DNA from: Thermoproteota archaeon
GTDB lineage: Archaea; Thermoproteota; Nitrososphaeria_A; Caldarchaeales; Calditenuaceae
Assembly: GCA_030550235.1 (NCBI GenBank)
Contig: JAUQPU010000002.1
Location: 28,602-92,601 of the forward strand
Direction: 5' to 3'
DNA: 64,000 nt
Each line of letters opens with the position of its first letter. Position 1 is the stretch's first letter. The position numbers and the translations under genes are program-made. Shown piece after piece: positions 51,665-60,930 of this stretch. A model generated the notes under the pieces. That model ran no database searches, was not told the DNA's origin, and saw nothing but the letters and a program-made list of their open reading frames with translations.

Positions 51665-51672
51665 TTTAAATA
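51665..51672 (+). promoter_or_regulatory. Putative TATA box of leuA-ilv operon
   Basis: CAAACATTTAAATATTG; predicted transcription start about 51695 from usual archaeal spacing. Confidence 0.6.
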
Positions 51673-51698
51673 TTGACGGAGCGCCTTCATAGACACAA

Positions 51699-51792
51699 GC
51701 GAAGGGTGGTAGTTATTGCTTGGGGCTATGAACTAAACCCACAAAGTCCTTGTGGCGCCGCCCATACTGATAACGCTCGTCTGCCCCTTCGC
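51699..51792 (+). promoter_or_regulatory. Structured 5' leader RNA candidate upstream of leuA
   Basis: Nested complementarity: GCGAAGGG/CCCTTCGC, GTTATTG/TGATAAC, TGGG/CCCA, CCACAA/TTGTGG; see findings. Confidence 0.5.
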
Positions 51793-51823
51793 ATCCTTCT
51801 TCTCTAAGTAGGAGGTCGAGAAG

Positions 51824-53359
51824 ATGAGCTGGAAAAGCTTTTTGGAGGGGGTATATGCTCTTCCGAGTCGTGTCTTTTTCTTTGATACTACGCTGAGGGA
51901 TGGTGAGCAGACGCCTGGAGTTGCTTTGCGTGTCGAGGAGAAGGTTATGATCGCTGAGGCTCTGGCTGATCTCGGGGTCGATGTGATTGAAGCGGGCTTT
52001 GCTGTCGTCTCTAAGGGTGAGTACGAGTCTGTTAAGAGGATAAGTGGGTTAGGATTAAGCGCCAAGATCTGCTCTCTAAGTAGGTGTGAGAAGAGAGACA
52101 TAGACGCTGCTGTTGACACGGGGTGCGACTGGGTCCACTTATTCATCGCGACCTCGGAGCTCCATATGAAGTATAAGCTAGGCATGGAAAGAGAGCATGT
52201 TGTTGAGCGGGCTGTCGAGATGGTTGAGTATGCGAAGAGCAGGGGTATTGTGGTCCATTTCTCGGCCGAGGATGCAACTAGGAGCGACCCCGATTTCTTA
52301 ATGCACATTTACAAAAGTGTAAGGGATGCGGGGGCTGATAGTCTAGATATCCCTGATACGGTTGGCATCGCTCTCCCACACGTAATGAGGTCTCTTGTTA
52401 TGCGAACTAAGAGGGAGACTGGTTTGCCGGTGGCCGTGCATTGCCACGATGATATGGGCCTCGCTACTGCTAACACTTTAGCGGGAGTAGAGGGCGGAGC
52501 GGAGATAGTGCATGTAACTGTGAATGGCATTGGTGAGAGGGCTGGAAACACTAGTCTGGAGGAGGTGGCTGTTGCTCTAAAATTCCTCTACGGTGTGGAA
52601 ACAGCCATAAATTATGAGAAGATAGCGAAGACCTCCAAGCTTGTCGCCAGATTAACAGGAATTCCCATTCCCAAGAACAAGGCGGTTGTAGGGGATAACG
52701 CTTTTTCCCATGAAAGCGGCATCCACGTACACGGCGTAATAAACAATCCTGCGACCTATGAGCCTATAATGCCTGAGCAAGTGGGGATGAGCAGGAGGAT
52801 CATCATAGGCAAGCACTCGGGGCTACACTCTATCGACACTGTCCTGAGGCAGTATGGCTATGTCTTAGCTGCAAATGAGGTTAAAGAAGTCTTGAACAGG
52901 GTTAAGGAGATTGCAGACTCAGGGCATAAGCTAGGTGATCAAGAATTGTTGCAGATTGTTAATGAGCTATTGGGGTCTCGGATTATGAGGCCTGTGACTT
53001 TGAAAGGGTTCCAGCAAATAACCACTGAGAGTGGTGATAGGTGTTTGGCTGAGTTTGAGGTTAATGGGGAGATGCTTCGGGTGGAGGGTGTTGGAAATAC
53101 TCCGTTGGAGTCGGCGATTGATGCCTCGTTGAAGGCATTCAACAATATTTTAGGCGATATCCAGCTAATTGGCTACTCGCTCTTCGCATCGCCCTACGAG
53201 GATAGACATCCTTACGAGGCCGAAGTCGTGATTAAGATCGATGGTAACACAATCGTCGGTAAAGGTATAGGGAAAACAAGCGGCCACACAATATTAAACG
53301 CTATGTCGAGTGCCGTGAATCAGTACTTGTCAATTTTGTCGAGGGGGATAGGGAGATGA
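51824..53359 (+). CDS. leuA: 2-isopropylmalate synthase / (R)-citramalate synthase family
   Basis: 511 aa; FFDTTLRDGEQTPGVAL, VIEAGFAVVSKGE, VAVHCHDDMGLATANTLAGVEGGAEIVHVTVNGIGERAGN; preceded by GGAGG Shine-Dalgarno; ilvB/ilvC downstream. IPMS versus citramalate specificity not decidable here. Confidence 0.88.
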   Translation: MSWKSFLEGVYALPSRVFFFDTTLRDGEQTPGVALRVEEKVMIAEALADLGVDVIEAGFAVVSKGEYESVKRISGLGLSAKICSLSRCEKRDIDAAVDTGCDWVHLFIATSELHMKYKLGMEREHVVERAVEMVEYAKSRGIVVHFSAEDATRSDPDFLMHIYKSVRDAGADSLDIPDTVGIALPHVMRSLVMRTKRETGLPVAVHCHDDMGLATANTLAGVEGGAEIVHVTVNGIGERAGNTSLEEVAVALKFLYGVETAINYEKIAKTSKLVARLTGIPIPKNKAVVGDNAFSHESGIHVHGVINNPATYEPIMPEQVGMSRRIIIGKHSGLHSIDTVLRQYGYVLAANEVKEVLNRVKEIADSGHKLGDQELLQIVNELLGSRIMRPVTLKGFQQITTESGDRCLAEFEVNGEMLRVEGVGNTPLESAIDASLKAFNNILGDIQLIGYSLFASPYEDRHPYEAEVVIKIDGNTIVGKGIGKTSGHTILNAMSSAVNQYLSILSRGIGR

Positions 53360-55089
53360 AGGCTAGCGATTCACTGGTAAAAAAGATGGAAGAGCTTGGT
53401 GTTGAAATCGTCTTTGGTATCCCCGGTGGCGCCAACCTCCCACTATATGACTCCCTTTATGACTCTAATATCAGAAGTGTGCTTGTGAAGCATGAGCAAC
53501 AGGCTGTTCACGCGGCTGAGGGGTATGCCCGCGTTAGGAAGAGGCCTGGAATAGCTCTGGCAACATCCGGCCCAGGAGCGACAAACCTAGTTACGGGCTT
53601 GGTGAACGCATCGATGGATAGCGCACCCCTAGTGGCGATAACGGGCCAGGTTGTAAGGTCCTTCATGGGTACAGACGCATTCCAAGAAGCCGATATAGTC
53701 GACATGGTTCTCCCGCATGTAAAGTATGCCTCAGTTGTCATCGAATCTTCCAAGCTTGTAAAAGAATTTGTAAACGCCTATCAATGTGCTATGAGCGGAA
53801 GGCCGGGTCCAGCTCTGATAGACATTCCAAGGGATGTTCAGCAGGAGGATGTTGGGGAGTATGAGCTGCTTAATGACGTCGTCGAGGAGAGATTTATTAA
53901 ACCTGTCACCAACCTCGACGAGAGCAAGTTTAGGAGGGCCGCTGAGCTGCTCGCAGCCGCTCAGCGCGTCTGCATCCTGCTAGGCGGAGGAGTATACTTC
54001 AGTGATGCTACCAGAGAGGCATTAAGGATTGCCGAGATACTTAACGCCGCTGTTGTAGCCACTACCCCGGGTAAAACAGCCCTCGATGAAAACCACCCCA
54101 ATGTCCTGGGTGTAGTAGGTATGCATGGCCGCTTTGAATCCAATCTAGCAGTCATAGACGCGGACCTAGTCCTATGCGTAGGCACTCGACTCTCTGACAG
54201 AGCAATCGGCCCAGCATCAGAGTTCAAGAAAAACAGAAAAGTAATCCACATAGACATAGACAGCAGCGAGATTGGGAAGAACGTCATCCCAGATATCGGA
54301 ATAGTCTGCGATGCTAAGGTAGCACTGAATAAAATACTTGAGAATCTATCAGTAATGAGCTTTGCGCCTAAAGATCCGGGATGGGTTTTGGGCCTGAAAG
54401 AGATTGGGCGTAGCTTCGACGAATATATGTTTAATCAATCTGATGGAGCGAGCTTATCGTCCTGGAAGGTTGTCAAGGCTATAAGGGACGAGCTGCCGAA
54501 GAGTGCTATAGTGACTACAGGAGTGGGGCAGCATCAGATGTGGGCCCAGCTATTCTTCAAGGTTTTGGAGCCAGGCACCTTCCTAACAAGCGCGGGTCTC
54601 GGGACGATGGGTTTCGGCCTTCCAGCCGCTATGGGGGCTAAGGCAGCAGCCCCGGATAGGATCGTGCTAAATATGGATGGGGATGGAAGCTTCCTGATGA
54701 CTTGCCAGACACTCGGTACCATAGTAGAGTATGACCTTCCAGTAATTACGGTGATCTTTGACAACCGCGCCCTCGGAATGGTTAGGCAGTGGCAGGACCT
54801 ATTCTACAAGAAGAGGTTTAAGGACGTAGACATCGAGGATAGGACAAACCTAATCAAGCTCTCCGAGGCTTTTGGAGTGGAGGGAGTTTTCGTGGAGAGC
54901 TACGAGGAGCTCAAGACCACGCTAAGAAGAGCTATTAGAAACGATGAGCCGGTCGTCATAGACGTGCCGATAGGCAAGGACGAGAAGGTCTTCCCGATGG
55001 TCCCTCCTGGAAAGTGGCTTGCAGATGTTATCCTTCCCCCGGGGTTCAGCAACTATGTTGAGGAGAAGACTACTAGTGCGGCTAAGTAA
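53356..55089 (+). CDS. ilvB: Acetolactate synthase large subunit
   Basis: 577 aa; VFGIPGGANLPLYDSL, LVKHEQQAVHAAEGYARVRKRPGIALATSGPGATN, MDGDGSFLMTCQTLGTIVEY, FDNRALGMVRQWQDLFY. Confidence 0.93.
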   Translation: MKASDSLVKKMEELGVEIVFGIPGGANLPLYDSLYDSNIRSVLVKHEQQAVHAAEGYARVRKRPGIALATSGPGATNLVTGLVNASMDSAPLVAITGQVVRSFMGTDAFQEADIVDMVLPHVKYASVVIESSKLVKEFVNAYQCAMSGRPGPALIDIPRDVQQEDVGEYELLNDVVEERFIKPVTNLDESKFRRAAELLAAAQRVCILLGGGVYFSDATREALRIAEILNAAVVATTPGKTALDENHPNVLGVVGMHGRFESNLAVIDADLVLCVGTRLSDRAIGPASEFKKNRKVIHIDIDSSEIGKNVIPDIGIVCDAKVALNKILENLSVMSFAPKDPGWVLGLKEIGRSFDEYMFNQSDGASLSSWKVVKAIRDELPKSAIVTTGVGQHQMWAQLFFKVLEPGTFLTSAGLGTMGFGLPAAMGAKAAAPDRIVLNMDGDGSFLMTCQTLGTIVEYDLPVITVIFDNRALGMVRQWQDLFYKKRFKDVDIEDRTNLIKLSEAFGVEGVFVESYEELKTTLRRAIRNDEPVVIDVPIGKDEKVFPMVPPGKWLADVILPPGFSNYVEEKTTSAAK

Positions 55090-55285
55090 TTCCTACGAGG
55101 CTGTCATAAAGCTTCTCCTATTCGCGAAGCAGGGGAGGCTCTCGCTTAGAGAGGCCCACTTAAAGACAGAAAACGAGGAGATCTCGGCTGAGATAGTTGT
55201 TGAGGGCCCATCAGACAAGATTAACTGGTTCATGCAGAAGGCAAACGGCTCCCCCTATATCCGCGAATGTAGAAGCATCGATTAG
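55073..55285 (+). CDS. Small ACT-like protein in ilvN position
   Basis: About 70 aa (VRLSNSYEAVIKLLLFAKQGRLSLREAHLKTENEEISAEIVVEGPSDKINWFMQKANGSPYIRECRSID); in-frame GTG near 55076 is the likely start, so the true boundary is approximate; overlaps the ilvB end. Confidence 0.5.
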   Translation, partial: LVRLSNSYEAVIKLLLFAKQGRLSLREAHLKTENEEISAEIVVEGPSDKINWFMQKANGSPYIRECRSID

Positions 55286-55292
55286 AGTGAGC

Positions 55293-55565
55293 ATGTCTGT
55301 GGGCCTGATGGTTCGGCTTCTGTTCACGGATCTTAAGGGCGCCCTCTCCGCAGCCCAGCTAGTCGGCGGGCTAGAGGGCGTCGAGGTTAGAGCTATATAC
55401 ATCGGCCGAGAAAAATTGGAGGAAATGTATGAGGTGTTGATGGAAATGTCGGGAGACTCTGTATCAGTTGATAGCTTCTTAAGATCTGCATCCTCGATTA
55501 ATGGCTTTGTTGAAGCTACTGTTGAGGATCTGGATGCTGAGGTCATCTGGAAGGGGATTGGGTGA
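55293..55565 (+). CDS. Small hypothetical protein between ilvB and ilvC
   Basis: MSVGLMVRLLFTDLKGALSAAQLVGGLEGVEVRAIYIGREKLEEMYEVLMEMSGDSVSVDSFLRSASSINGFVEATVEDLDAEVIWKGIG; starts just after the preceding ORF. Confidence 0.55.
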   Translation: MSVGLMVRLLFTDLKGALSAAQLVGGLEGVEVRAIYIGREKLEEMYEVLMEMSGDSVSVDSFLRSASSINGFVEATVEDLDAEVIWKGIG

Positions 55566-55571
55566 GGGTGT

Positions 55572-56552
55572 TTGGCCCGGGTCTATTACGACTCTGATGC
55601 TTCTCTTAACCCTCTCAGCGGAAAAAGGGTCGCGGTGATTGGCTATGGGAGTCAGGGCAGGGCTCAGGCACTAAACCTCAGGGACTCGGGTGTGGAGACC
55701 GTGGTAGGGCTTAGGGGGGAGGGTAAATCATATGATGCCGCGGTTAGGGATGGGTTCACACCCATGCCGATAGAGGAGGCCGTCCGGACCTCTGACGTAA
55801 TATTGATGTTGATTCCAGACGTGCCCATGCCAGAGACCTACAGGGAGTACGTGGAGGGGAGCCTGACACCTGGTAAGACACTTGTCTTCGCCCATGGATA
55901 CAATATACACTTCCGAAGAATTACTCCACCGCCCTATGTGAACGTGGTGCTTGTGGCTCCTAAGGGCCCCGGTCCACTTGTGAGGCAGAAGTATCTCGAG
56001 GGGCGTGGAGTTCCCAGTCTCATTGCAGTCCATCAGGACCCGACAGGCAGTGCGAAGGAGATAGCCTTGGCAATAGCTAAGGGAATAGGAGCCACCAGGG
56101 CAGGCGTCATAGAGACGACTTTCAGCGAGGAGACCGAGACGGATCTACTTGGAGAGCAGGCAGTTCTTGTAGGTGGGGCCATGGAGCTGATAAAGAAGGG
56201 GTTTGAGGTGCTTGTCGAGAATGGTTATCAGCCTGAGCTAGCCTACTATGAGGTCTGTAATGAGCTGAAGCTGATAGTCGACCTGATATACACTGGGGGG
56301 CTAATGCACATGCTTCGCTCAGTCTCCGACACGGCTAAGTTCGGAGGCCTAACAATCGGCCCCCAGATAATTGACGAGTCCGTAAAACAGAAAATGCAGG
56401 AGGCATTGAGGAGGATAAGGTCGGGCGAGTTTGAGAGACAGTGGACAGGAAATCCCGACTCATATAAGATCTTGGAGGAGCTGATGAAGAAGACAGAGCA
56501 ACATCCCCTCGAGGTTGTTGGAAAACGCCTCAGAGAAATGGCACTAATATAA
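55572..56552 (+). CDS. ilvC: Ketol-acid reductoisomerase
   Basis: 326 aa; VAVIGYGSQGRAQALNLRDSGV, VLMLIPDVPMPETY, FAHGYNIHF, VVLVAPKGPGPLVRQKY, LLGEQAVLVGG, AYYEVCNELKLIVDLIYTGGLMHM; TTG start. Confidence 0.95.
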   Translation: MARVYYDSDASLNPLSGKRVAVIGYGSQGRAQALNLRDSGVETVVGLRGEGKSYDAAVRDGFTPMPIEEAVRTSDVILMLIPDVPMPETYREYVEGSLTPGKTLVFAHGYNIHFRRITPPPYVNVVLVAPKGPGPLVRQKYLEGRGVPSLIAVHQDPTGSAKEIALAIAKGIGATRAGVIETTFSEETETDLLGEQAVLVGGAMELIKKGFEVLVENGYQPELAYYEVCNELKLIVDLIYTGGLMHMLRSVSDTAKFGGLTIGPQIIDESVKQKMQEALRRIRSGEFERQWTGNPDSYKILEELMKKTEQHPLEVVGKRLREMALI

Positions 56553-60606: not shown

Positions 60607-60930
60607 GGGGCGGCGGGTAGGGCTGGGGGGCTAGCCCTCCCCTAAAACCTGAAACGGGCTTAAGCAGGGGCCAGAAACCGGGTGGAAGAGGTGCCTGGTC
60701 CCCTGCGCGGCCTAGATAAGATGGTATGAGGCCGCGTCCCACCGGAGAACGGTAGGGTGTGGCGCCGCGCGTAGGTGTGGCCTCCCACACCCTCATGCAC
60801 CGAACCGCGTCAGGCCCGGGAGGGAGCAGCGCTAAGGTGCAGCCGAGCTGCTGGTGGGGGTGCGTGGCTGACCATCTCATCTAGACACGGCGGGGGTACC
60901 AGCCCTCGACCACCTCGGAGCCGCCGCCCC
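60607..60930 (+). ncRNA. ffs: Archaeal SRP RNA (7S RNA)
   Basis: Domain IV core CGAACCGCGTCAGGCCCGGGAGGGAGCAGCGCTAAGGTG at about 60801-60839; termini GGGGCGGCGG (60607) and CCGCCGCCCC (60921-60930) are perfectly complementary; length about 324 nt. Confidence 0.95.

Follow-up and report, generated by a model that had tools for sequence, protein, structure and literature searches.

Ribosome-based sensing of amino acids by means of leader peptides is a textbook bacterial mechanism, and leuL and ilvL of Escherichia coli serve as leader-peptide attenuators of the leu and ilv operons. Another bacterial attenuator of this kind precedes the branched-chain operon ilvBNC of C. glutamicum (PMC11857589). 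In the ermC leader, telithromycin causes ribosomes to shift frame and enter the spacer, by which the next gene is opened (PMC5009743). Frameshifting at hungry codons is a topic of Gallant and Lindsley, as cited in PMC8211752; according to a 2016 review of recoding, there is no known example of a functional product of such a frameshift, and slow A-site codons count less for -1 than for +1 shifts (PMC5009743). In the full-text literature searched, which was mostly without subscription papers, no leader-peptide control of amino-acid genes was found for archaea, and the novelty of the case described below is provisional.

The locus compared here with these systems lies in a 64,000-nt stretch of Caldarchaeales (Aigarchaeota) DNA, the whole of which is referred to as the window. 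All features described are on its + strand. Three genes form one operon headed by leuA: leuA itself (51824-53359; 2-isopropylmalate synthase / LEU1_arch subfamily; NF002085, 550 bits at a cutoff of 517, and TIGR02090, 525 bits at a cutoff of 485), ilvB for the acetolactate synthase large subunit (53356-55089; TIGR00118, 627 bits, cutoff 538), whose start overlaps the leuA stop, and ilvC for ketol-acid reductoisomerase (55572-56552; TIGR00465, 400 bits, cutoff 226). The interval between ilvB and ilvC (55090-55565) contains two short overlapping ORFs in different frames and no recognisable acetolactate synthase small subunit; an ORF at 55197-55562 matched no NCBIfam model. These short ORFs could represent a regulatory subunit that has diverged or been split, or could result from a frameshift error in sequencing. 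Further along the window, an archaeal SRP RNA was found at 60611-60926 (Rfam RF01857, 145 bits).

The TATA box TTTAAATA (51665-51672) predicts a transcription start near 51695, and the predicted leader of leuA extends from there to 51823. TATA-like boxes are found at comparable spacing in the leaders of relatives. A sequence-only reading of the window had proposed at this place a cis-acting, structured leader RNA controlling branched-chain amino-acid biosynthesis. The elements it had named, i.e. the TATA box, an outer helix (P1) of GCGAAGGG (51699-51706) with CCCTTCGC (51785-51792), three inner helices, and a strong Shine-Dalgarno sequence GGAGG (51811-51815, part of the leuA signal AGGAGG at 51810-51815), are all present, and the existence of a cis-acting leader ahead of the operon was borne out by its conservation in relatives.

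Near the start of the leader we noticed a further Shine-Dalgarno-like sequence, GGGTGG (51704-51709), inside a 25-nt block GCGAAGGGTGGTAGTTATTGCTTGG (51699-51723) that is identical in an alignment of six species of the window's genus. It is followed by a mini-ORF, UUG-CUU-GGG-GCU-AUG-AAC-UAA (M L G A M N stop; 51716-51736), and by a long frame, -1 relative to the mini-ORF, that reads AUU GCU ... CUU CUU CUC UAA and encodes IAWGYELNPQSPCGAAHTDNARLPLRILLL before its stop (51715-51807). The stop codon of the long frame (51805-51807) lies 16 nt upstream of leuA, and in the window's genus an in-frame GUG (51706-51708) is located three codons upstream of the AUU. The long frame terminates in a branched-chain run, CTG CCC CTT CGC ATC CTT CTT CTC (L P L R I L L L; 51781-51804). 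The 3' strand of P1 falls within this run, and its 5' strand overlaps the leader Shine-Dalgarno sequence.

The leuA orthologues and upstream regions of Caldarchaeales genomes provided 33 leaders from 12 genera for comparison, and in each of them the interval from promoter to leuA holds a pair of overlapping reading frames. In the common layout, some 20-30 nt separate the TATA box from a GGUG-type Shine-Dalgarno sequence, which is followed by either UAUUGCUY (27 genomes of 11 genera) or GUGARCCAACUCGA (six genomes, all of genus g6). The mini-ORF, which starts with UUG or GUG and has its own Shine-Dalgarno sequence, stops after 5-10 codons in 33/33 genomes. Its second codon is CUU or CUC (Leu) in 27/27 genomes of the UAUUGCUY type, the leucine codon CUC stands at position four in genus g6, and a CUY leucine codon is present in every mini-ORF. 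The base following GCU is a pyrimidine without exception, as CUY in the mini frame requires. The -1 frame over the mini-ORF start is open for 24-47 codons in the 33 genomes, and without exception it is first closed by a stop positioned -17 to +14 nt relative to the start of leuA (33/33), versus 0/33 for the mini frame and 1/33 for the third frame used as controls. The long frame of genus g7 extends 14 nt past the leuA start and has no clear terminal run.

The 20-nt start motif of the leader occurs as a single copy in the window genome, even when up to three mismatches are allowed, and looser versions elsewhere in genomes of the order resemble background. No comparable leader was seen by eye upstream of hisG and ilvD (12 sampled relatives' genomes each), and the leader was not seen upstream of leuA in genera g5 and g12. 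Two further leuA loci (L038 and L039, of genomes G012 and G015) are devoid of the leader; there, a ten-codon AUG ORF (MGEYFIVKKR and MGECFIVKKH, each followed by a stop) overlaps, in a different frame, the GTG at which leuA apparently starts.

In dinucleotide shuffles evaluated at the genus level, the open long frame gave a log10 P of about -5.9, the mini-ORF stop within ten codons about -6.1, and both jointly about -11.8, with the most permissive member taken per genus and genera taken as independent. The latter is reasonable, since the sequence downstream of the mini-ORF shows no greater similarity between genera than shuffled sequence does (identity 0.45 vs 0.45), whereas the start region does (0.68 vs 0.49). 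As no between-genus similarity is detectable in the stretch after the mini-ORF, it is the reading frame that has been kept there and not the sequence. An RNAcode-like substitution test based on BLOSUM gave no clear coding signal within the window's genus, in which gaps in the leader keep frame and codon differences are chiefly non-synonymous. The absence of such a signal is expected, because leader peptides would conserve frame and stop, not residues. The comparison shows both putative frames to be under selection, the mini-ORF always including CUY and the long frame stopping at leuA. At the level of sequence, the information conserved in the leader is that of translation signals: a Shine-Dalgarno sequence, UAUUGCUY, a mini-ORF stop and a -1 frame ending at leuA.

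Most long frames end in a run of Leu, Ile and Val codons, as in the window (...RILLL-stop). The last ten long-frame codons include on average 5.4 codons for these amino acids, compared with 2.3 and 1.1 when the same bases are read in the other frames (in the window: 6, versus 2 and 0), an enrichment with a combined Fisher p of about 1e-9 over 11 genera. The codons are also biased: 101/117 leucine codons of the run are CUY, compared with 420/1007 in leuA (p = 4e-21), and 31/32 isoleucine codons are AUY, compared with 401/873 (p = 2e-9), both p values being optimistic because counts were pooled over related genomes. The run is weak or absent in five genomes (G010, G011, G016, G021 and G022) and in genus g7.

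The leader shares several traits with the bacterial leu/ilv attenuators, i.e. a short leader ORF, runs of codons for the regulatory amino acids, and a location directly before a branched-chain operon. A leader ORF in conserved frame was found upstream of the operon in 33/33 genomes, and codons for the end products are enriched, with a terminal L/I/V run in most genomes and CUY in every mini-ORF. It differs from the bacterial attenuators in being archaeal, in having two overlapping frames from one start site, and in that no terminator/antiterminator pair was found to separate the leader from leuA. On the + strand of the window, no terminator-like site was detected between 51590 and leuA. The hairpins expected of a transcription attenuator of the bacterial type were thus not seen, and the leader stop is only 16 nt away from leuA. 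The coincidence of the leader stop with the leuA start instead indicates translational coupling.

We consider it likely that the leader exerts ribosome-sensing, leader-ORF control over leuA-ilvB-ilvC in a general sense, of which plain attenuation is a sub-case. The position of the long-frame stop, the terminal run, its codon bias, the unique start motif, leader peptides in a separate clade (see below) and the ermC precedent all argue for such control. In the scheme that we propose, a ribosome would load at the GGGUGG Shine-Dalgarno sequence onto the ambiguous start U-AUU-G-CU-Y. Reading as UUG-CUY would yield a mini-peptide whose leucine codon comes right at the beginning (second position; fourth in one genus), and would end after 5-10 codons, far from leuA. 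Reading as AUU-GCU, or after a -1 slip, would remain open for about 30 codons, usually through the Leu/Ile/Val run, and stop atop the leuA start. With an ample supply of charged, CUY-reading leucine tRNA, most ribosomes would terminate at the end of the mini-ORF and dissociate; under shortage, a larger share would be found in the long frame, crossing or pausing in the branched-chain run. Such ribosomes would unfold the paired region around the leuA Shine-Dalgarno sequence, and leuA would be translated by coupling. The leucine-dependent choice of frame, taken alone, is a tentative part of this scheme, in which we place rather less than even confidence. We infer from sequence comparison that either frame is translated, that leucine is what is responded to, in which direction control runs and by which routes the long frame may be entered.

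Translational attenuation of the ermC type would require that a ribosome in the leader frees a sequestered downstream Shine-Dalgarno sequence. With the run occupied, the modelled cost of opening leuA, averaged over genus means, decreased from 9.1 to 6.8 kcal/mol, which is a trend (p = 0.083), and in the window genome that of the leuA Shine-Dalgarno sequence decreased from 13.1 to 7.2 kcal/mol. A modelled ribosome parked on the mini-ORF left leuA opening unchanged (genus means 11.0 and 11.4 kcal/mol). This null result, together with the mere trend for run occupancy, the weak or absent run in several genomes, the lack of a slippery heptamer and the codon AGU in genus g6 (see below), counts against the proposed scheme, as do the statements of the 2016 review on slow A-site codons in -1 shifts and on the lack of known functional hungry-codon products.

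Ribosomes may enter the long frame by initiating at AUU, or by slipping -1 at a leucine codon for which charged tRNA is in short supply. The octamer UAUUGCUY fits two readings simultaneously, AUU-GCU and UUG-CUY. The mini-ORF has both a Shine-Dalgarno sequence and a UUG or GUG start, and the long frame is without a canonical start in many genera. In the transcribed part of seven leaders (of G016, G020, G021, G022, G024, G033 and G039), the long frame contains no AUG, GUG or UUG; that of G008 is interrupted by a stop three codons upstream of the AUU. In these leaders, ribosomes would therefore get into the frame either by initiating at the non-canonical AUU or by shifting -1 from the mini-ORF. 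Genus g6 has AGU as the -1 codon where its mini-ORF starts; initiation at AUU cannot account for this genus, and with no AUU available a shift is favoured there. No slippery heptamer (X XXY YYZ) was found in the frame overlap, where TATTGCTY alone is conserved. In the same genus, five loci (L018 and L022-L025) have an inverted repeat, e.g. GAATTAGTTCAG ... CTGAACTAATTC around GGAAAAATTTTCC, upstream of the leuA TATA box. This repeat may serve as the operator of a transcription regulator, and the genus is the one whose leader is of the variant type.

A more specific version of the frame-choice scheme, which we regard as possible though somewhat doubtful, is a leucine sensor at the start codon itself. 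The initiator tRNA would be placed on UUG and AUU, which overlap, and the frame would depend on how much leucyl-tRNA is available to read the CUY codon that follows; when leucyl-tRNA is short, the ribosome would slip one base back, from the dead-end mini-ORF to the leuA-bound frame. The likeness to hungry-codon frameshifting lies in a proposed -1 shift while the A site awaits a scarce aminoacyl-tRNA, the difference in that the P-site tRNA would here be the initiator in most genera. If true, the start-codon sensor would unite a regulatory use of hungry-codon frameshifting with ribosome-based amino-acid sensing in archaea. In mechanism, the known case nearest to the two-frame plan is the telithromycin-responsive ermC leader, a short leader ORF whose alternative frame enters the spacer and frees the start of the next gene. 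The Caldarchaeales leader differs from it in that the proposed trigger is scarce leucyl-tRNA and not an antibiotic, that the frames overlap at the start codon, and that the arrangement is conserved in 12 genera. With its overlapping two-frame start, the Caldarchaeales leader also offers a specific candidate from nature for a frame choice driven by starvation.

Plain attenuation with a single leader peptide deserves the most attention among the alternatives, and we regard it as a possible but not the favoured account. Here, the long frame would start at the non-canonical AUU (or GUG in the window's genus) downstream of the leader Shine-Dalgarno sequence, branched-chain starvation would stall the ribosome in the terminal run, and the mini-ORF would be incidental or merely terminate out-of-frame initiation. 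The conservation of U-AUU-GCU a few nt after the GGUG-type core in 27 genomes, the terminal run with its CUY/AUY bias and the occurrence of AUG leader peptides of the plain type in Methanomethylophilaceae are all consistent with it. However, the mini-ORF stop is itself selected (the genus-level log10 P of about -6.1 given above), and the pyrimidine that always follows GCU is what a CUY codon in the mini frame needs. Genus g6, moreover, lacks the AUU, three of its six species lack any canonical start in the long frame, and a ribosome stalled on the last codons of the run would cover the leuA Shine-Dalgarno sequence.

It seems highly unlikely that the mini-ORF alone matters, i.e. that a ribosome paused at its leucine codon holds P1 open and exposes leuA, the long frame being a by-product. 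The universal CUY codon of the mini-ORF and the overlap of the P1 5' strand with the leader Shine-Dalgarno sequence would suit such a mechanism, but the modelled parked ribosome does not change the opening energy of leuA, and a long frame ending at leuA in 33/33 genomes would be left unexplained.

A structured cis-regulatory RNA, riboswitch-like or T-box-like, in which a ligand or tRNA controls P1, is hardly probable. The leader (51695-51823) has a minimum free energy (MFE) of -37.6 kcal/mol, compared with a mean of -34.3 (sd 3.7) for shuffled sequences (z = -0.89), and 35/200 shuffles fold equally well, hence the shuffle test, which the sequence-only reading had itself named as a possible refutation, speaks against an unusually stable fold. 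The nested helices described in the sequence-only reading all occur within the MFE fold, and the outer one is modestly supported beyond the genome itself, whereas the inner three are not conserved: over the six species of the window's genus, paired cells amount to 94% (outer helix), 74% (second helix) and 58% (each of the inner two). In the same six species, no measure of covariation exceeded shuffles for the leader helices. Covariation would not be visible within this genus, because the 5' strand of P1 is invariant there. Between genera, P1 pairs the leader Shine-Dalgarno region with a segment located within the terminal run or immediately upstream of it, by means of different sequences, e.g. 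GTCTGAGG/CCTCAGAC, CACGAGGG/CCCTCGTG and GCGTGG/CCACGC, and its own pairing modestly beats that with partners permuted across genera (P = 0.01). This recurrence counts in favour of a structured RNA. A conserved, covarying multi-helix core was not found, and the outer helix alone is weakly supported.

The competing GGGTGG/CCGCCC pairing, from which a two-state switch had been suggested, is in the best duplex only in the window genome, and a riboswitch or two-state fold was rejected in view of the ordinary folding energy and the lack of conservation of the inner helices. The earlier statement that no known riboswitch or T-box class is recognisable agrees with the Rfam search, in which the leader had no match at the gathering threshold and, up to E = 5, just one meaningless miRNA hit; the leuA loci of relatives gave no relevant match either. 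The conserved bases are translation signals, and the remainder of the leader keeps frame, not sequence, which, together with the folding results, argues against an element that is primarily a folded RNA. The leader upstream of leuA is probably not a small-molecule RNA sensor.

That the leader encodes a functional small protein instead of a regulatory peptide, as its open frame of 24-47 codons in 33 genomes might suggest, is extremely improbable, since the peptide is conserved nowhere beyond start and terminal run, codon differences within the genus are mostly non-synonymous and the location is always directly upstream of leuA.

Leader ORFs are also found before leuA in Methanomethylophilaceae, where about 20 of the 23 genomes examined have AUG-started ORFs of about 13 codons with Leu/Ile-rich ends. 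Their peptides (loci L129-L155) include MICNAFIGLLLLLE, MIFKSSAELIILL, MVDVHDVPDILLL and MIFAQHVGLLLIE, each ending at a stop, as well as MIFSTTTGLLLLK and others. Both groups of leaders precede an archaeal leuA and contain a short ORF ending in a Leu/Ile run; those of Methanomethylophilaceae differ from the Caldarchaeales leaders in their canonical AUG, in the single frame of about 13 codons and in a further spacer before leuA. The two are apparently of independent origin. Ribosome-sensing leaders, suggested by comparative evidence in Caldarchaeales and separately in Methanomethylophilaceae, would make archaeal attenuation directly testable. In many of the Methanomethylophilaceae loci (L129-L155), the leader peptide is followed by a conserved spacer ending in GACGGTTTGGTGGTTTTTATG.

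Other leuA leaders were noticed in the course of the comparison. Seven loci of family f10, which belongs to the same phylum (L161, L162, L165-L167, L169 and L172), share a different conserved leader, AAGGAGGTGT ... GCCCAAAGGGGGCGAGACTACCTGCGTTACAGA ... GACACCTCT, of which the 3' segment can pair with a Shine-Dalgarno-like 5' segment; two of these leaders (L161 and L165) had no Rfam match except for a neighbouring tRNA. At loci L163 and L164 (genomes G108 and G122), a short common block, AGGAGAGATNNTNTTCTTTAA, is present in otherwise dissimilar AT-rich leuA leaders.
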